Positions 7,593 to 16,073 of a stretch of DNA of 64,000 bases are shown piece after piece. The stretch covers positions 2,197,501-2,261,500 of the forward strand of contig NZ_CP087715.1 of NCBI RefSeq assembly GCF_020991125.1, read 5' to 3'. The notes under the pieces are model-generated. The model searched no databases and was not told where the DNA came from. It was given only the letters and a program-made list of their open reading frames with translations. Origin of the DNA: Microbulbifer celer (GTDB lineage: Bacteria; Pseudomonadota; Gammaproteobacteria; Pseudomonadales; Cellvibrionaceae). Positions within the stretch are counted from its first letter, which is position 1, and every line of letters starts with the position of its first letter. The position numbers were made by a program, and so were the translations under genes.

Positions 7593-8921
7593 TCACCTTT
7601 CCCGAAGTGCCTCTCCCGCCTGATTGAACGGCTTGATTAAATAGTCGAAAACTGTTTTTGATCCGGTTTTGATATCCACAGTTGCCACCATCCCGGGCAC
7701 AATCGGGAACTCCTTACCCACATCATTCGTCAGTGCATGATTATCGGTAAGAATCTTTACGTGATAATAATAATCCCCGGGCTGCGTTTCGTCCTCGATG
7801 GTGTCTGGCGAGATAATCGTCACTTTTCCGTCCAGCCCACCGTAAACGGAGTAGTCATAGGCAGTAATTTTTACCTTTGCCTTTTGCCCAGGGTGGATAT
7901 AGGCAATATCTCTTGGAGAAATCTTGGCCTCAATCAAAAGCCGGTCGTCCAGAGGAACAATTTCCAATAAGCGTCCGTTTGGAGGTATAACCCCGCCAAT
8001 AGTGGTCACAGAGATGTCTTTGACAATACCCCGAACAGGTGACTTCAATGTCAACCGGGTCAATGAATCTGACCGCCCTATCACTACCGAGCTCAGCGCT
8101 TCAACTTCAGCGCTCACATTCGCCAGCTCTTCTCGGGCACTGACCATATACTGTGAACGCGTTTCTTTAATTTTAAGTTCCAGTTCAGACTTCTGGCGAC
8201 TGAGGCGCAGTACTTCCACATTACTGGCAGCACCAGACTGGACCAGCTCTCGGGTAATAGCCAGCTCACTTTCCACCAGGTCAAGAGACTCTTTAAGGCT
8301 ACCTAATGATTCACGCAGACTTGACTGCCGAGTTTGATAGAGCTTTCTCTCTTTTGAGATCAACTCCTCAAATGGCAGCAATTCCTTGGGGAAGGCTAAC
8401 GGAATACCATTCACTTCCGCTGTCAAGCGCGCAGCGCTGGCAACTGCGGCACGGTATCTTGCTTTGCCTTCCTGCACATTGGATCGGATTTTCGTCGGAT
8501 CCAATTGCGCGAGCACCTCCCCCTTCTCGACAATATCTCCTTCTATAACCCGCAACTCCTTCAGAATACCTCCTTCCAGAGACTGAATGATCTGTGCACG
8601 AGAGGTTGGAATCACCTTTCCCGCGCCGGTAGATACCTCGTCAACAATTGCGAAGTAGGACCACGTGATCAAACTCGCTATCAGCAAGAAAAAAAACCAG
8701 ACGATACGCTTCGACTTTGTTAATCGAACGTCGTCAAACTCTTCACTGAAGTGCGCACCAGCATTCTGAAAGTCGGCCTCCAGGATTGCAATACTTTCCG
8801 CAGAGTAGACATCATCCGCCACATTACTGATCGCGGATGGCCGAGACGCGCTTTCACCATTCGATTCCTCACCGGGCTTACTACTGTTGGAACTATTTTG
8901 ATATCTTTTCTCGTCTGCCAT
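7593..8921 (-). CDS. HlyD/LapC-type type I secretion periplasmic adaptor
   Basis: 442 residues. A cytoplasmic N-terminus rich in Ser/Asn/Glu precedes one transmembrane segment (about residues 73-93). Then come a lipoyl-like half (GGILKELRVIEGDIVEKGEVLAQLDPT), a long coiled-coil hairpin (about 170-290) and the C-terminal beta-barrel part (PRDIAYIHPGQKAKVKITAYDYSVYG split over the D-domain). This is the membrane-fusion component linking the inner-membrane ABC transporter with the TolC-like channel. ATG 8921 has a GGGAGAG ribosome-binding site and follows the ABC gene by 18 bases, so it is the last gene of the secretion operon. Confidence 0.94.
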   Translation of the reverse strand: MADEKRYQNSSNSSKPGEESNGESASRPSAISNVADDVYSAESIAILEADFQNAGAHFSEEFDDVRLTKSKRIVWFFFLLIASLITWSYFAIVDEVSTGAGKVIPTSRAQIIQSLEGGILKELRVIEGDIVEKGEVLAQLDPTKIRSNVQEGKARYRAAVASAARLTAEVNGIPLAFPKELLPFEELISKERKLYQTRQSSLRESLGSLKESLDLVESELAITRELVQSGAASNVEVLRLSRQKSELELKIKETRSQYMVSAREELANVSAEVEALSSVVIGRSDSLTRLTLKSPVRGIVKDISVTTIGGVIPPNGRLLEIVPLDDRLLIEAKISPRDIAYIHPGQKAKVKITAYDYSVYGGLDGKVTIISPDTIEDETQPGDYYYHVKILTDNHALTNDVGKEFPIVPGMVATVDIKTGSKTVFDYLIKPFNQAGEALRER

Positions 8922-8939: not shown

Positions 8940-11096
8940 TCAGGTTACCTTTTCGCGACTCTTCGCTTCACGGGATGACTCTGCCAACTGTCTCAGCGCG
9001 GCATCTTTGGGCGCATCCAGAATTATTCTTCCGTTATCCACCACGATAATACGGTCAACCAACTGCAGTGTGCTGCTTCTATGCGTTGCCAGAACCAGTG
9101 TTCGCCCCTCGAGCCAACGCTGTAGCTTTGCTATGAAACGCTTCTCAGTCACTTCATCCAGAGAAGCGGTAGGCTCATCCAGCAGTACAATATTGGGCTC
9201 ACGTATAAACAGCCGGGCAAGTAGCAATGACTGCCTCTGCCCACCTGACAGCCCAAGACCGCCTTCCAATATCTGATGATCGAGACCTGTAGGTAGCTTG
9301 CGGACAAACTCCAGAGCTCCTGACATGTCCAGTGCAGCTAGAATTTCACGGTCTGTCGCTCCTGGCGCACCCAGAGTTACATTTTCGCGGATGGTGCCGT
9401 GGAACAGCGCTGCATTCTGTGTCAGCAACCCGATATCCCGCCGCGTGTCCGCGGGGTCTATGTGTGCAAGACTGATACCTTCCAGGATGACTTCTCCACT
9501 GGCAGCCTCCAGCAACCCGGACAGCGCCTGAAGTAAGGTCGACTTACCGGCACCATTCCTGCCCAGTACTGCAACATTTTCCCCGGAGTTTATCCTGAGA
9601 CTAGCAACTTCGAGGGCCGTGACTTCGCTGTGTGCGTCGTGTTTGAACGTCGCCTGCCGAATAGAAAAATTGCCAGTTATATTGGGTACATGGACCCTTT
9701 TACTGCCTTCAGGGTGATCGACCGGAAGCTGCATTATTTTATCCACGCCCTCCAGCGCAACTTTCGCCTGCTGCCAGCGGCTCAGAACCTGAGTGAGTTG
9801 TGCCATGGGGGCCATCATGCGGGAGCCGAGAATGGACGCCGCTACCAAAGAGCCCGTCGTCAGATCGCCGGCCATCACGAGCGGTGCACCGAGCAAGACA
9901 ATGACAGCAAACACCGAAGATTGAACGTTGTGCGTCCACGTCACCAGTTTACCCACCAGGTTGCGAAGTTTGAGGTTGGCCTCCGCGGTTACCGCGTTGA
10001 AGTGATTCCACTGTTGCTGAAAGCGCTGCTCCGCCTGCAACCCCTTGATATCCTCCATCCCTTGTATGCTCTCGACCAACATCGCGTTACGCAGTGATGA
10101 TTCCCGCATCGATTCAGCGGCGAGTTCCGCCAGCTTCCCTTGCGCAAGCAGCCCCGGCACCAGCAGCAGTACCAGCGCGCACAGAGGCACCAGCGCCAAT
10201 GGCCCGGCGATGTACCACATGACGAAGAGAAACAGGAAGAAAAATGGCATATCCGCCATTCCCAGAACGGTGGTGGATGTCACCATTTCTCTGACACGTT
10301 CAAGTTCCCGAATCTGGGAAATAAACGTGCCGGTAGACTTTGGCTTACTGCTATTGCGCAGCCTGACCGCATGGCCGTACACCAAATCGGAAACCCGGAC
10401 ATCTGCGCGCTTGCCGAGCAGGTCCGTAATTCGCATCCGATTTACGCGCATGATGAAGTCGAATAGCACCGCGATCATCACGCCACTGAAGAGTACATAA
10501 AGCGTCGGTGTAGATTCTGCCGGTATTACCCGGTCGTATACCTGCTTGGAGAAAAGAATGCCCGCCAAAGTCAGAATATTGGCAATCGTTGTCGCGATGA
10601 TTACGTGTCCATATGGCTTCAGATCACGAAGTACAATGGCTCGAAACCAGTGCTTTTCAGGTGGTTTTACATAATCATCGACACGCAGGTCGGACACGTT
10701 TTTCGAGGGACGCAGGACAACAACCGTGCTTACCTGTTCTTCCAGAATCGCGACCGTTGTCGAACTCGACGCGCCTTCATCACCACCAAAGGTGATTGAA
10801 ACCTGCCCCTCGGCATCCACTCGCTCAAGAACACCGACCTGTCCACCCTTGAACTGAACAACGATGGGCAAACGCCAGGGACTGATCATGGAAGCATCAA
10901 ACTGGGTAAAGCGTGCAACCAGTCCCGTTTGTCTGGCAATACTTCGTATTGCCCGCTCAGAGCCTCCATCTTTTACCAGCTGCGAAGAGATCCGCACATT
11001 TTCTGCAGAGTATTCAAGGCGATAGTGGTTCGCGACCGTTAGTATAGCGGCGAGCCAGGTGTTGTATTCACTACCGCTTCGATTTTGTTTACTCAT
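8940..11096 (-). CDS. Type I secretion ABC transporter, permease/ATPase (LapB/HlyB-type)
   Basis: 718 residues. The N-terminal 125 or so residues are a C39-peptidase-like domain in which the catalytic Cys region is replaced (NTWLAAILTVANHY), so it should bind the substrate and not cleave it, as in HlyB and LapB. A six-helix ABC membrane domain follows, then the ATPase with Walker A GRNGAGKST, signature LSGGQRQ and Walker B IVLLDEPTA. The frame extends to 11168, but ATG 11096 has an AGGAGA site and the normal family start. It lies between the TolC-like and HlyD-like genes. Absence of the C39 cysteine argues against a double-glycine bacteriocin exporter and for a large adhesin or repeat-protein exporter. 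Confidence 0.94.
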   Translation of the reverse strand: MSKQNRSGSEYNTWLAAILTVANHYRLEYSAENVRISSQLVKDGGSERAIRSIARQTGLVARFTQFDASMISPWRLPIVVQFKGGQVGVLERVDAEGQVSITFGGDEGASSSTTVAILEEQVSTVVVLRPSKNVSDLRVDDYVKPPEKHWFRAIVLRDLKPYGHVIIATTIANILTLAGILFSKQVYDRVIPAESTPTLYVLFSGVMIAVLFDFIMRVNRMRITDLLGKRADVRVSDLVYGHAVRLRNSSKPKSTGTFISQIRELERVREMVTSTTVLGMADMPFFFLFLFVMWYIAGPLALVPLCALVLLLVPGLLAQGKLAELAAESMRESSLRNAMLVESIQGMEDIKGLQAEQRFQQQWNHFNAVTAEANLKLRNLVGKLVTWTHNVQSSVFAVIVLLGAPLVMAGDLTTGSLVAASILGSRMMAPMAQLTQVLSRWQQAKVALEGVDKIMQLPVDHPEGSKRVHVPNITGNFSIRQATFKHDAHSEVTALEVASLRINSGENVAVLGRNGAGKSTLLQALSGLLEAASGEVILEGISLAHIDPADTRRDIGLLTQNAALFHGTIRENVTLGAPGATDREILAALDMSGALEFVRKLPTGLDHQILEGGLGLSGGQRQSLLLARLFIREPNIVLLDEPTASLDEVTEKRFIAKLQRWLEGRTLVLATHRSSTLQLVDRIIVVDNGRIILDAPKDAALRQLAESSREAKSREKVT

Positions 11097-11184
11097 GCCT
11101 GCTCTCCTGGAATCTCTTCTAGTGGTCCAAACCGGTAACGGCCCCTGCGATACTCTGGGGTTTGCCACCGAACACTCGAGAACT

Positions 11185-12669
11185 TCATGGAAGCACCTCT
11201 ACCCCCTGAATGGGTCTACCCTCGAGATGAAAAGCGTTGCGAATTTCACCCACGGTATACAGGCAATCAACCTGCAACGTATACAGGTCAAATCGGGTAT
11301 TCAGCTTTTCCATCCGGGCCTGATGCAATTCCTGCTCAGAATTGAGAAGTTCTACCAGTGTCCGAGTGCCCAGAGAGGAGTACTGCTTCTGGTAGAGCCT
11401 CCTGGTTTCAGCGATTGCATCCAACCTGGCATCGAGAATAGAGAGGCTCCGCTGCAACCCGGAGGTCTGGCTCTGCGCGACGCGCAGCTCGCGCTCTACG
11501 GATAGCCGGGCGTTATCCTTGGCGGCGGCAGCTGAGCGCATGGCGTAACTGGCGGCATCTTTATCCGCTGAAATCCTGCCCCCCTGATAGATCGGCATAG
11601 AGAGATTCAGAAATATCGCTTTTTCATTTTCATCCAACGCGTATGTATCCACGTACTCTTGATCCAGATAACGGTTAACACTGCCGTCTAGAGACAACGT
11701 CGGCCAGGAGGCGGCGCGCGCTTCTTTCAGCTGAGCAACCGCCGCCGCCCTTTCCGCCTCAGCAACCATGACTGCTGGCGAGGCGTTGACTTGAGAAGGT
11801 TCTACCATGCAACCGCTGGTCAGATTCGGGGGCACAGTCATTGAAAGAGTTACGGGGTGCTGCACCCCCATCAGATTCTGTAAAACGCTCTGCCAACGAC
11901 TGAGTTGTGCCTGAATTTGCTGTCGTGTTGCCCGTGCAGACTCCACGCGCGCCTGAGACTGGAGAAGATCAGACCGGGAACTGACCCCCTTCTCGTTACG
12001 CATTCGCACCAGCCGCGAGATTTCCGAGACGCCCACGATCTGCTCATCAGCCGATTCCAGCTGCGCTTGGTACCGTTGAACTTCAATCGCAGCTTGCGCC
12101 GTGTCCAGCGCTACGCTATCGATCTGCTGCAGCACACGTGCCCGGGAGGCATTGGCCACAGCGGTAGCGGAATCGACACTGCCGGATATTTTTCCGAAGT
12201 CATAAATGACCTGGGAGACGTAGAGCTGCAATGCGTGTCCATCGCCATTTCCCTTCTTCTCGCTGTCGTATCCCCCGACCACATTCATGCTGAGCTGGGG
12301 GAAATACCCCGCCCGGGCAGAGCGGATATTCTGCTTTTGCTGACTCAGGACACTAACCGACTCTCCTATCGCGGGATGCCAGGACACTGCCCGCTGTACA
12401 GCTTCTGTGATATCAACTTTCCATCCGCTGCTACTGGCAGCCGCTGCGGTGACCGTTGGGCCTGAAACAACGCTGCTGTCATCTGAGGGGTCGCCCAACA
12501 ACTGATCCTGGCTGATCACCTCCAAACTCTCTGCTTCACCTTGAGCAATTGCACAAACACTGGACATCGAAAGCAGAAGAACCAGAAGTGAATTCCGGAC
12601 TGGTGTGTGTATACCTGCGGATCGCAGATGGACCTCTTTATAACTATGAATCCCGTTGAATTGGCGCAC
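11185..12669 (-). CDS. TolC family outer-membrane channel protein (LapE-like)
   Basis: 494 residues. A signal peptide (NSLLVLLLSMSSVCAIAQ, cleavage near residue 43) is preceded by an unusually long N-region. The mature part shows two repeats of the outer-membrane efflux domain with long amphipathic helices (RQQIQAQLSRWQSVLQNLMG; SMPIYQGGRISADKD), including the typical YQGGR turn. The start at 12669 is GTG and lacks a clear ribosome-binding site, so the true start is uncertain. It is the first gene of the tolC-ABC-HlyD operon, 88 bases before the ABC gene. It is inferred to form the outer-membrane duct for the export of the acidic repeat protein encoded just upstream. Confidence 0.92.
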   Translation of the reverse strand: MRQFNGIHSYKEVHLRSAGIHTPVRNSLLVLLLSMSSVCAIAQGEAESLEVISQDQLLGDPSDDSSVVSGPTVTAAAASSSGWKVDITEAVQRAVSWHPAIGESVSVLSQQKQNIRSARAGYFPQLSMNVVGGYDSEKKGNGDGHALQLYVSQVIYDFGKISGSVDSATAVANASRARVLQQIDSVALDTAQAAIEVQRYQAQLESADEQIVGVSEISRLVRMRNEKGVSSRSDLLQSQARVESARATRQQIQAQLSRWQSVLQNLMGVQHPVTLSMTVPPNLTSGCMVEPSQVNASPAVMVAEAERAAAVAQLKEARAASWPTLSLDGSVNRYLDQEYVDTYALDENEKAIFLNLSMPIYQGGRISADKDAASYAMRSAAAAKDNARLSVERELRVAQSQTSGLQRSLSILDARLDAIAETRRLYQKQYSSLGTRTLVELLNSEQELHQARMEKLNTRFDLYTLQVDCLYTVGEIRNAFHLEGRPIQGVEVLP

Positions 12670-12757: not shown

Positions 12758-12791
12758 ATAAAAAAGCACCGGACCCAATGATCCGGTGCTT
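12758..12791 (-). terminator. Intrinsic terminator of the Asp-Ala repeat gene
   Basis: Stem AAGCACCGGA / TCCGGTGCTT with an 8-base loop, followed on the minus strand by TTTTTT. It lies 38 bases past the stop codon of the repeat-protein gene and separates it from the downstream TolC-like gene, so the substrate and its secretion operon are probably separate transcripts. Confidence 0.9.
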
Positions 12792-12829
12792 CACGCGCCC
12801 ACAATGCGGGCAATTCACTCTGGAGAGCT

Positions 12830-14551
12830 TCAGATATCCTGACTACCGCTTTGTGACCAGATATCCTGCATCGGATCATTCATCTCCGGCGGCAGCACAT
12901 CGTGATGATCCTCGAGTGCTGCGACGTCAGCCTGCCCCCCATCAAGAAGATCACCCAGTCCCAAGTGTCCAAGATCATTCTCCTCAAAGTAATCTTCCAG
13001 AAGATCCTTGAGGTTGGGTAACGGATAGCCATGACCATCGCCAGGCGCCCCTTCATCATCGCAACCACACTCGCCGTGTCCATCTGAAAGCTGGATGACG
13101 CTTTCAAGGTGATCCTGGATCGCCTCTTCCAGGACCGTCTCGATCGCTTCTTCAAGCTCTGGACTCGGGCAGGTAGTCGTTCCAGAGGTATGCTCGTAGG
13201 CAATATCTATATCGACGTACAGATTGACCTCGCAATTCTCATCGCCCTGGGCCGGCTGTTTATCGATATCCGCCGCGATATCAACCTCGAACTCATGTCC
13301 CTGATAGTCGAACTCGAAACCGTACTCGAAGTCGCTATCGGAGTCTGAATCCGCGTCAGAGTCTGCATCGGCATCGCACTCAAGGTCGACATCAACTTCC
13401 ACGTTGAAATCGCACTTCTTGTCGCAGTCGGCATCGGCGTCGGCATCCGCATCGGCATCGGCATCGGCATCGGCATCAGCGTCGGCATCGGCATCGGCAT
13501 CGGCATCGGCATCGGCATCAGCGTCGGCGTCGGCATCCGCGTCGGCATCCGCGTCGGCATCGGCATCGGCGTCGGCATCTGCGTCGGCGTCGGCATCTGC
13601 GTCGGCATCGGCGTCGGCGTCGGCGTCGGCGTCGGCATCGGCATCGGCATCGGCATCTGCGTCGGCGTCAGCGTCGGCATCGGCATCGGCGTCGGCATCG
13701 GCATCTGCGTCGGCATCTGCGTCGGCATCCGCATCGGCATCGGCATCGGCATCGGCGTCGGCGTCGGCATCGGCATCGGCGTCGGCATCTGCGTCGGCGT
13801 CGGCATCTGCGTCGGCATCCGCATCGGCATCGGCATCCGCATCGGCATCCGCATCGGCATCGGCATCCGCATCGGCGTCGGCGTCGGCATCTGCGTCGGC
13901 ATCGGCATCGGCGTCGGCGTCGGCGTCGGCATCGGCATCGGCATCAGCATCGGCATCGGCATCGGCATCAGCATCGGCATCTGCGTCGGCATCTGCATCG
14001 GCATCCGAATCTGCATCCGCATCGCTATCCGATGGAGGGGTAGGAGGGGAAGAAGGTGGGGGCAGATCACCGTCCGTCGGTTCTTGCGGGTTCAGGAATA
14101 CCCTCTCACCGGGACCGGAGTCATCATCCAGGTTATGTGCCAAAATACCCAGTCCAATGGCCCCCAAGCCTCCCCAAATCCAGGGGAGCAGGCCATCATC
14201 GTCATCTTCTTCAGATGTCATATCCCCGAGATCACTAGCGGAGGTTACCTGGGCCAGCGAAAATAAGGCACCGTCCGGGCCAAGCTGTGCCAGCAAAACG
14301 TCATCTGTCCCAAGCTGCTGAAGAAACAGATTACTTTGCTTGCCATCGTCATTAAATGCGTAGAAGTTCTCTATTGTGACGACTTCTCCCGACTCCAGCG
14401 TGACAATCAAGTCTGCACCTAAGCGGGATACTGACTGAACCTCATCCTGCGCAAGCGATAACTTCACAAAGGCCGGTGAGTCGAGTACCACATTAGAGGT
14501 TTCGAACGCGGACAGTGCGCCGCTTAATTTATCTACAACCTGAGTTTGCAT
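12830..14551 (-). CDS. Acidic Asp-Ala dipeptide-repeat protein with BapA/LapA-like N-terminus, putative T1SS substrate
   Basis: 573 residues. Residues 1-110 resemble the BapA-prefix/LapA N-terminal module: a segment [20 protein letters not shown] followed by [15 protein letters not shown] and an acidic patch, then a hydrophobic Gly-rich stretch [17 protein letters not shown] (121-137). A Pro-rich hinge leads to 96 uninterrupted Asp-Ala dipeptides (residues 183-374). The C-terminal 199 residues hold further alternating Asp segments, seven cysteines (C376, C380, C392 among them), a predicted helical part ([20 protein letters not shown]) and a Gly/His/Asp stretch. No signal peptide, Ig-like repeats or GGxGxD RTX repeats are seen. 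It lies upstream of a complete T1SS in the same direction, making it the likely cargo. No known full-length family is recognised; N-terminal assignment is by motif. Confidence 0.8.
13430..14005 (-). repeat. (GAY-GCN)96 coding microsatellite for 96 Asp-Ala dipeptides
   Basis: 576 bases of uninterrupted hexamer GAY-GCN, one frame reading Asp-Ala throughout. Third positions vary (GAT/GAC; GCC, GCA, GCG, GCT), so selection keeps the amino acids and not the DNA. A 59-base stretch at 13551-13609 recurs identically at 13761-13819, offset by 210 bases (35 hexamers), a sign of segmental duplication within the array. Confidence 0.95.
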
Positions 14552-14789: not shown

Positions 14790-16073
14790 TTAAACTTCTT
14801 TCGCCGTTGCTGTGTTCTGGTTCACTAACTCCCAGCTTGGACGGTTTGCTGTTTTACTCAACCGGTACAACATCAGAGCAACACCGCAAAGGAGGAAAGT
14901 CCCCCAATAAAGAACCGCGCCACTCCACCATTGCAGAACAATCCCGCCAATAAACGGCGCGGAAGACCAGCCGAGGGAGTAGAAAGACGACGCGCCAAAA
15001 TAGCTCCCGCGCAAATGATCCGGTGCCATTTCATCGACTTGAACACTCATGGTCGGGAACAACACCGCCTCTGCCAGGCTGACAACAAAAGTGACCCACA
15101 ACCAGCTCCAGTACCCTTCAACTGGCGACACCGCAAAGCCAACCTGACCAGCCGCCAACACCAACAGTCCGATCTTGATTCTCTCGGCGGTGGAGAAGCG
15201 CCGTAGAATCCGCAGCAAAGGAAACTGCAAAAAGACAATGGTTCCAGCATTAACCAGAATCATGGCGGAAATCAGCTCCACCAGCTTTGGCGCACCAGCC
15301 AAAGTCAGATATTGCACAAGGCTGGTGTCCATATGGGCGTAAATAAACAGCGTCAGCACGTTGGCCAGAATAATGATCAGAAAAACCTGATCCTGTTTGA
15401 GCACGCGTAATGTATCGCGAAAGCGATGTTCAGCTTGCCGCTTCAGCCTCAAACTCACACCGCTGGCAGTGTGAGAAAATGCCCACAAGAACCCAACCCA
15501 CAGAAAGACGTAGCTGAGAGCTGTCAATGTGAATGTTGATTGTTGTGCACTGAGCCCCAGCCAGATGCCCACAATTGGGCCGAGTGCTGCACCCGCATTG
15601 ACCAGGAAGTAGCGGAATTGCAATGCCAGTGCTCGGCGGGATCTATCAGGGATCAGATCGCCAAATAATGCACCGGCCGTGGGCTCCCAAATAGACCGCC
15701 CGATCGAGCTCAGAACGATAGGAACAATGATTTCCAGCAAGGTGTCCGCGTAAGCGAGCAGGAAGAACGACAGCGCATTGATTGCTGTACCGGTCAGCAG
15801 AATACTTCTGCGACCGTATCGATCGGACAGACTGCCCATATAAAACCCGAGCACAGCTGCCCCCATTGCGGAAGCACCGAGCACCGTACCGATTTCCGCC
15901 GGATCCAGGGAAAACTTCTGATGAAGCAGAATGGCCAGAAACGGCCACACCATATAGTAGGTGCCGCGGCCAAAGAAGCTGCCAATCAGTACCACCCACA
16001 CCAGTGGTGGCCATGAAAACTGTGACCTTACCTGCGACCTTGTATAGGCGCTCTGCCACCACTTTCTATCCAT
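14790..16073 (-). CDS. MFS transporter
   Basis: 427 residues with about twelve hydrophobic segments in two six-helix halves. The loop 2-3 motif of the major facilitator superfamily reads GSLSDRYGRRS. The start ATG 16073 has an excellent GGAGGTGA site. The family resembles MdtG/YceL-like multidrug or metabolite exporters, but no substrate can be assigned. A diverged fragment of the same gene sits at 19111-19241, beyond the hmp gene, showing that this gene and its upstream flank were once duplicated. Its upstream relation to the esterase gene is discussed there. Confidence 0.9.
   Translation of the reverse strand: MDRKWWQSAYTRSQVRSQFSWPPLVWVVLIGSFFGRGTYYMVWPFLAILLHQKFSLDPAEIGTVLGASAMGAAVLGFYMGSLSDRYGRRSILLTGTAINALSFFLLAYADTLLEIIVPIVLSSIGRSIWEPTAGALFGDLIPDRSRRALALQFRYFLVNAGAALGPIVGIWLGLSAQQSTFTLTALSYVFLWVGFLWAFSHTASGVSLRLKRQAEHRFRDTLRVLKQDQVFLIIILANVLTLFIYAHMDTSLVQYLTLAGAPKLVELISAMILVNAGTIVFLQFPLLRILRRFSTAERIKIGLLVLAAGQVGFAVSPVEGYWSWLWVTFVVSLAEAVLFPTMSVQVDEMAPDHLRGSYFGASSFYSLGWSSAPFIGGIVLQWWSGAVLYWGTFLLCGVALMLYRLSKTANRPSWELVNQNTATAKEV

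Follow-up and report, generated by a model that had tools for sequence, protein, structure and literature searches.

The open reading frame with a long Asp-Ala array in Microbulbifer celer probably encodes a BapA-type adhesin or matrix protein that is exported by the adjacent type I secretion system (T1SS) and held at the envelope as a cation-binding polyanion. The gene was studied in a window of 64,000 nucleotides, by which we mean the whole stretch of DNA that was analysed (contig NZ_CP087715.1, positions 2,197,501 to 2,261,500). Judged by its sequence, the protein would be a compact variant of an already described kind of BapA with Asp-Ala repeats. Domain content, gene order, co-occurrence with the exporter and the constraint on Asp are the directly observed part of this BapA-type reading. 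The features are collected in Table 1.

Table 1. Features of the repeat protein gene and its T1SS neighbours, with positions in the window.
Feature	Position	Strand	Evidence
Asp-Ala repeat BapA-type protein, 573 aa	12830..14551	-	ORF, domain matches, codon analysis
BapA_N (PF22783), residues 3-122	14186..14545	-	Pfam E 1.1e-18
Gly-rich hydrophobic segment, residues 120-138	14138..14194	-	maximum of 19-residue hydropathy scan over N-terminal part
(Asp-Ala)96, residues 183-374	13430..14005	-	repeat count
Cys-containing C-terminal module, residues 375-573	12833..13429	-	alignments of compact members
Intrinsic-terminator-like hairpin, gap between repeat gene and TolC gene	12763..12792	-	terminator scan, folding vs shuffles
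TolC-family outer-membrane channel of T1SS	11185..12669	-	TIGR01844, 261 bits, cut-off 225
T1SS ABC transporter, LssB type	8940..11168	-	TIGR03375, 794 bits, cut-off 693
T1SS HlyD-family adaptor	7593..8921	-	TIGR01843, 335 bits, cut-off 209

The layout described in the earlier note, i.e. an N-terminus resembling the BapA prefix, a hydrophobic Gly-rich segment, the array and a Cys-containing C-terminus, was recovered in full. BapA_N scored 67.5 bits against a Pfam cut-off of 27 and was the sole family listed by Pfam for this protein, while the NCBIfam model NF033677 matched with E 2.8e-16. The hydrophobic segment begins within the last residues of the BapA_N match and leads into a short linker that is acidic and rich in Pro. 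All seven Cys residues of the protein (376, 380, 392, 440, 461, 495 and 497) sit in the 199-residue C-terminal module. The polypeptide contains 188 Asp and Glu versus 9 Lys and Arg residues. Beyond this, NCBIfam gave only one weak exchanger match and hits to four staphylococcal repeat models that stayed far below the cut-off, and a sequence search of the BapA_N-side N-terminus against the PDB gave nothing at E 0.1. Membership of the RTX family (glycine-rich nonapeptide repeats) was considered and dropped, as the Pfam and NCBIfam scans gave no RTX match.

The uninterrupted run of 96 Asp-Ala units, which was the starting observation, is correct. The next-longest Asp-Ala run among the 205 stop-to-stop fragments of at least 100 amino acids in the window has 2 units, so the array is not a product of chance. 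An assembly artefact is unlikely because the genome is a single contig and comparable arrays occur in other Microbulbifer genomes. The Asp residues are encoded by 63 GAT and 33 GAC codons, and all four Ala codons are in use. Bases 1, 2, 4 and 5 of the hexamer are invariant in 96 of 96 units, base 3 is T (63) or C (33) and never A or G, and base 6 can be any of the four. Variation is limited to third codon positions, and the array is selected as protein, with Asp-Ala in the sense frame; this frame is the coding one because GAA and GAG are found in 0 of 96 positions and all four Ala codons are present. No higher-order repeat structure was found in the array: identity at lags of 1-24 units is 0.26-0.45, around the 0.37 given by composition, and an exact repeat of 9 units, the longest present, lies inside the shuffle range (mean 7.5, maximum 15). 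On/off phase variation by slippage is ruled out, since the unit comprises six bases and gain or loss preserves the frame.

The opposite strand harbors a Ser-Ala frame (+13404-14321) which is open for 305 amino acids. That this antisense frame would be the real gene, or the array a case of neutral DNA slippage, is nevertheless hardly credible. Ser-Ala on the opposite strand is an automatic product of a GCN-GAY array, and a selected Ser-Ala frame would permit the Glu codons that are absent from the sense frame. The invariance of the four hexamer positions argues against both an antisense gene and neutral slippage, and it is the sense frame that possesses BapA_N and T1SS partners.

The proposal that this BapA-type gene lies beside its own T1SS was confirmed by the downstream genes for TolC, an LssB-type ABC transporter and HlyD, all on the same strand. 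The gaps are 160 bp between the repeat gene and the TolC gene, 16 bp between the TolC and ABC genes and 18 bp between the ABC and HlyD genes. The ABC protein has a C39-like N-terminal domain without Cys (its sole Cys is residue 330), so no leader cleavage is expected. The order repeat gene(s)-TolC-ABC-HlyD was found in 18 of the 18 genomes with a T1SS-side locus examined, three of which (L039, L041 and L049) have two tandem repeat genes; another 4 of the 22 carrier genomes fall outside this count, with the repeat gene at a contig edge. Directly upstream of the repeat gene there is an MFS transporter gene (window 14790-16073, minus strand), a homologue of which is found on the same side in 11 of the 17 other T1SS-side loci.

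The gap between the repeat gene and the TolC gene contains a predicted intrinsic terminator, 40 nt past the coding end of the repeat gene, made up of a 13-bp hairpin and a trailing T tract; folding of the region is better than that of its shuffled versions (z -3.75). With a score of at least 19, a limit chosen after the first list was seen, and a start within 100 nt, such hairpins follow 24 of 25 repeat genes, versus 0 of 18 TolC genes, 0 of 18 ABC genes and 1 of 18 HlyD genes; the TolC and ABC counts make a weak comparison where the downstream gene follows almost immediately (16 and 18 bp away in the window), as the stretch is then mostly coding, and two hairpins after ABC genes lie beyond the 100-nt limit. 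This conserved putative terminator between the substrate and exporter genes is among the newer parts of the present analysis. Transcript levels of substrate and exporter may differ, and co-transcription of the repeat gene with the exporter is not assured because the terminator-like hairpin follows the repeat gene.

The likeness to LapA suggested in the earlier note does not extend beyond the type of exporter: the ABC protein belongs to the LssB family, of which LapB is also a member. It is very improbable that the protein is held back by an N-terminal plug in the manner of LapA and set free by LapG under control of LapD and c-di-GMP. No LapA retention family appeared in the Pfam and NCBIfam scans of the window protein, and the best match of the M. 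celer genome to the LapG family (PF06035) reached 20.8 bits, under the cut-off of 27. LapG was over the cut-off in 4 of 25 Microbulbifer genomes examined; of the 14 BapA_N carriers among these 25, two (G012 and G013) have such a match, a point in favour of control by LapG. Control of the LapA/LapG type was dropped on the absent retention module and the sub-threshold LapG match.

Whereas the earlier note recognised no family with pure Asp-Ala of this length, a close precedent has been published. According to Kumar and Spiro (2017, PMC5588039), BapA of Paracoccus denitrificans is a protein of 2,211 amino acids with 891 Asp-Ala repeats, and its gene directly precedes those of the T1SS, bapBCD. 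They describe that attached growth is severely deficient in bapA or bapBCD mutants, both being needed, that adhesion is stimulated by 10 mM Ca2+, and that BapA was identified in envelope fractions by mass spectrometry; the authors liken BapA to SdrC and aspein (PMC5588039). Disruption of bapA abolishes attachment, for which overproduced polysaccharide can compensate, as stated in another paper (PMC13235738).

Two contigs of P. denitrificans DSM 413 (L099 and L079) end in an Asp-Ala array and are assigned here to the two ends of bapA because, between them, they contain VDRYT and LPGSV, the motifs that flank the repeats according to PMC5588039. The N-terminal piece, L099, contains BapA_N (E 1.5e-19), its N-terminus being 36% identical to that of the window protein over 64 residues, followed in the same order by a hydrophobic Gly-rich segment and a long Asp-Ala array. 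The C-terminal piece is followed by genes for ABC, HlyD and TolC proteins that are 52%, 56% and 26% identical to those of the window; this order, ABC-HlyD-TolC, differs from TolC-ABC-HlyD in Microbulbifer. The proteins also differ in size, with 96 repeats in 573 amino acids for the window protein versus 891 in 2,211 for P. denitrificans BapA. Yoshida et al. 2017 is said to be a further study of P. denitrificans BapA/BapBCD. No similarity was detected between the C-termini of the window protein and P. denitrificans BapA, and their contact functions may therefore differ; the BapA C-terminus resembles that of the large paralog encoded in the M. celer genome (31%, E 4e-16) and also that of L040. 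Literature searches for Microbulbifer with type I secretion and aspartic acid, and for 'aspartate-alanine' with repeat, adhesin or secretion, found no papers, and a search for Asp-Ala repeats returned PMC5588039.

Adhesins of the Salmonella type share the BapA_N domain with the window protein. Salmonella BapA is exported by a T1SS, as the window protein would be by its context; the Salmonella-type BapA_N adhesins are built of Ig-like repeats, in place of which the window protein has the Asp-Ala array and the Cys module. The staphylococcal Sdr and Clf proteins resemble it in possessing a dipeptide array with alternating Asp, and the repeat region matched the NCBIfam SdrD model at 129 bits (cut-off 2500), with nothing matching beyond the repeat region and its edges. 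These proteins follow the Sec/LPXTG route and carry other adhesive domains. Mollusc aspein, which according to PMC5588039 is Asp-rich, contains Asp-Ala repeats and acts in a Ca2+ context, is a eukaryotic shell matrix protein, and the likeness would be in composition only.

A search with the N-terminus matched 22 of 58 genomes, M. celer included, all of them among the 37 Microbulbifer genomes. The assignment of the relatives to this genus is supported by a contig piece of one of them (L024), which is identical to the corresponding part of a Microbulbifer variabilis contig (L051). Comparison of the lists row by row showed that, of the 37 genomes, the 22 with the BapA_N gene are exactly those with the ABC exporter, where the exporters are 59-100% identical to that of the window. 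In the remaining 21 searched genomes of the order there was no BapA_N match, and the ABC matches had 31-36% identity; the ABC search scored 18 candidates per genome, which slightly weakens such absences. Among the 22 N-terminal matches, 19 have Asp-Ala arrays and one (G020) has Ser-Asp; the sequence of G013 turns to poly-Asp as its contig ends, and that of G026 stops short of the array. In a sample of the class, PF22783 was detected in 8 of 369 genomes at E 0.001, M. celer alone being over the cut-off, and in 0 of 14 control genomes.

Arrays of this type are widespread: at least 118 stretches of 20 or more consecutive Asp-Ala units occur in genome contigs of many bacteria. BapA_N-like sequence was found in 20 of 80 listed Asp-Ala loci (tblastn E 1e-4; including a Microbulbifer and a query's own locus), an LPXTG-like anchor at the end in 13 of the 80 (by a loose pattern) and a match to a T1SS component of the window operon in 12 of the 80, three of these 12 being weak or to TolC only; these counts are minima and not frequencies, as the loci span at most 8 kb and many are incomplete. 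Surface-type proteins belonging to two export routes thus carry poly-Asp-Ala. The Asp-Ala proteins of Paenibacillus bovis (L058) and Bacillus chungangensis (L066) represent another setting, as they end without an LPXTG-like sequence and have Lys/Arg-rich stretches close to the beginning of the open frame.

In the genus, 26 repeat ORFs were found, with longest runs of 39-324 units in 24 of them, 6 units in the Ser-Asp protein and 9 units in a tandem copy. Across 5,647 units, Ala has been replaced 124 times (79 by Thr, 33 by Ser, 10 by Gly and 2 by Cys) and Asp 3 times (2 by His and 1 by Val), as counted in 24 of the 26 ORFs over stretches of at least 20 units, with one odd unit allowed between Asp-Ala runs and Asp-Ala-Asp-Gly, Ser-Asp and short arrays left out; the changes are not independent events, as repeat slippage copies them. 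This large bias between the two sites argues that the alternate Asp is what matters in the arrays. A long array is not indispensable in every member, because the tandem compact copy of G001 (L039:12368-13684, 439 amino acids), located beside a copy with 111 units, has a longest run of only 9. The related protein of G020 (L043:2164-4329), encoded in the same operon order, has 110 Ser-Asp units in place of Asp-Ala. In the BapA_N protein of G013 (L023) poly-Asp occupies the array position up to the contig end, versus Asp-Ala in other species. L044 and L045 each have an additional array, built of 55 and 68 Asp-Ala-Asp-Gly units, respectively; these units are reminiscent of DxDG motifs, which are Ca2+-binding.

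Besides the compact proteins there are five large repeat ORFs (L003 of M. celer itself, the second ORFs of L031 and L032, L035 and L040), with longest runs of 172-324 units and long regions outside the arrays. Ig- or cadherin-like matches, some under the cut-off, were detected in the scanned parts of L003 and L040. The second Asp-Ala protein of M. celer (L003:3385-10704, minus strand) is encoded outside the window, about 21 kb from the window gene, in an open frame of 2,440 amino acids with a longest run of 179 units; its approximately nine near-identical Ig-like repeats look recently amplified. The expectation that such repeat proteins always sit by an exporter held for the co-occurrence of BapA_N and ABC genes by genome and failed for part of the large paralogs: two of the five directly follow an HlyD gene, and three have no T1SS gene in the stretch examined. 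Since the ABC search in the M. celer genome gave a single match at E 1e-100, the large paralog and the window protein probably share one exporter.

Seven compact members could be aligned over the C-terminal module (alignment A2), which consists of segments bracketed by Cys in which acidic and hydrophobic residues alternate, followed by a variable part and a terminal motif; the L041 member lacks some of the cysteines. The module of the window protein has no Pfam match, and the only Pfam hit among the seven aligned modules is a weak one to Lamprin (E 0.013) in a single member. A sequence search of the module profile against the PDB found nothing at E 0.1. The profile matched 20 of 48 Microbulbifer genomes at E 0.001, the full-length matches being only the alignment's own seven rows (six genomes) and the remainder one half or short pieces, and in the class sample it matched 1 of 369 genomes, namely that of M. 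celer, which is itself an alignment row. Within the sampled genomes the module looks confined to Microbulbifer, and it appears to be a newly seen part without a described family in the libraries searched. Cysteines are unusual in T1SS adhesins, and the Cys content of the window protein weakens its reading as such an adhesin.

Compact and large forms have a similar ending, with [LIM]W within the last 17 residues in 24 of 25 complete C-termini of the genus repeat proteins; examples are DDPTQELWVENGINVV and DDPMRDLWSQNGNHDL. This common motif is likely a secretion signal. The putative signal common to the window protein and the large paralog is, like the module, among the newer parts.

By analogy we infer that the window protein is secreted, anchored in the envelope and able to bind Ca2+. 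Translation would yield a strongly acidic and largely unfolded chain, the extreme C-terminus of which (consensus DPxxDLWxQxGxHD) would be recognised by the LssB-type ABC protein. The chain would then pass C-terminus first via HlyD and TolC, uncleaved by the Cys-less C39-like domain, with BapA_N and the Gly-rich hydrophobic segment exiting last and holding the protein at the envelope. Outside, the Asp-Ala array may form an extended flexible polyanion which binds Ca2+ or Mg2+, ions that are abundant in seawater, and could act both as a stalk and as the site of ion-bridged cohesion. The Cys-bracketed C-terminal module would be the distal contact part.

The array could instead be a passive spacer for which any soluble unstructured chain would suffice, with no role of cations, similar to the stalk model for staphylococcal Ser-Asp regions. 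The varying length of the longest uninterrupted run in the genus, the occurrence of Asp-Ala arrays before an LPXTG-like wall anchor in some of the listed loci and the Ser-Asp units at the same place in one Microbulbifer all fit such a spacer. A pure spacer would not need an Asp that is replaced about 40 times less often than its partner, although repeat homogenisation could contribute to this difference, and the stimulation of attachment by Ca2+ in P. denitrificans (PMC5588039) also speaks against it; we regard the spacer as rather unlikely. Somewhat less probable still is a secretion ratchet, in which chelation of external Ca2+ by the array stops back-sliding during T1SS export, as for RTX repeats. 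The strict Asp at every second residue would suit this role, as would the status of the window protein as a T1SS substrate by context despite having no RTX match. A ratchet is at odds with the same arrays in proteins that end in an LPXTG-like sequence and would not be expected to be T1SS substrates, and with the L039 tandem copy, which adjoins the same exporter type with so short a run. Moreover, T1SS-type BapA_N proteins without long Asp-Ala arrays exist.

Going beyond a stalked adhesin, the compact Microbulbifer proteins might be a two-zone matrix polymer that binds Ca2+ or mineral, a speculative and improbable proposal. A flexible chain with Asp at every second residue would be combined with a disulfide-locked sheet of Asp-Ile/Asp-Val strands, one face of which is all Asp, as a counterpart in bacteria of the Asp-rich biomineral proteins, and this polymer would be secreted together with a Bap-type large adhesin via one shared exporter.

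Read as a BapA-type, envelope-held polyanion, the window protein extends the single published case, P. denitrificans BapA, to a natural experiment that spans a genus. Microbulbifer offers natural variants with arrays of differing lengths, an Ala to Ser swap in one species, a tandem copy that is almost arrayless, substitutions that spare Asp, and compact and large forms which probably use one exporter. The role of dipeptide Asp arrays, whether stalk, Ca2+ glue or secretion ratchet, would hereby become testable in marine bacteria by comparison and by simple deletions.
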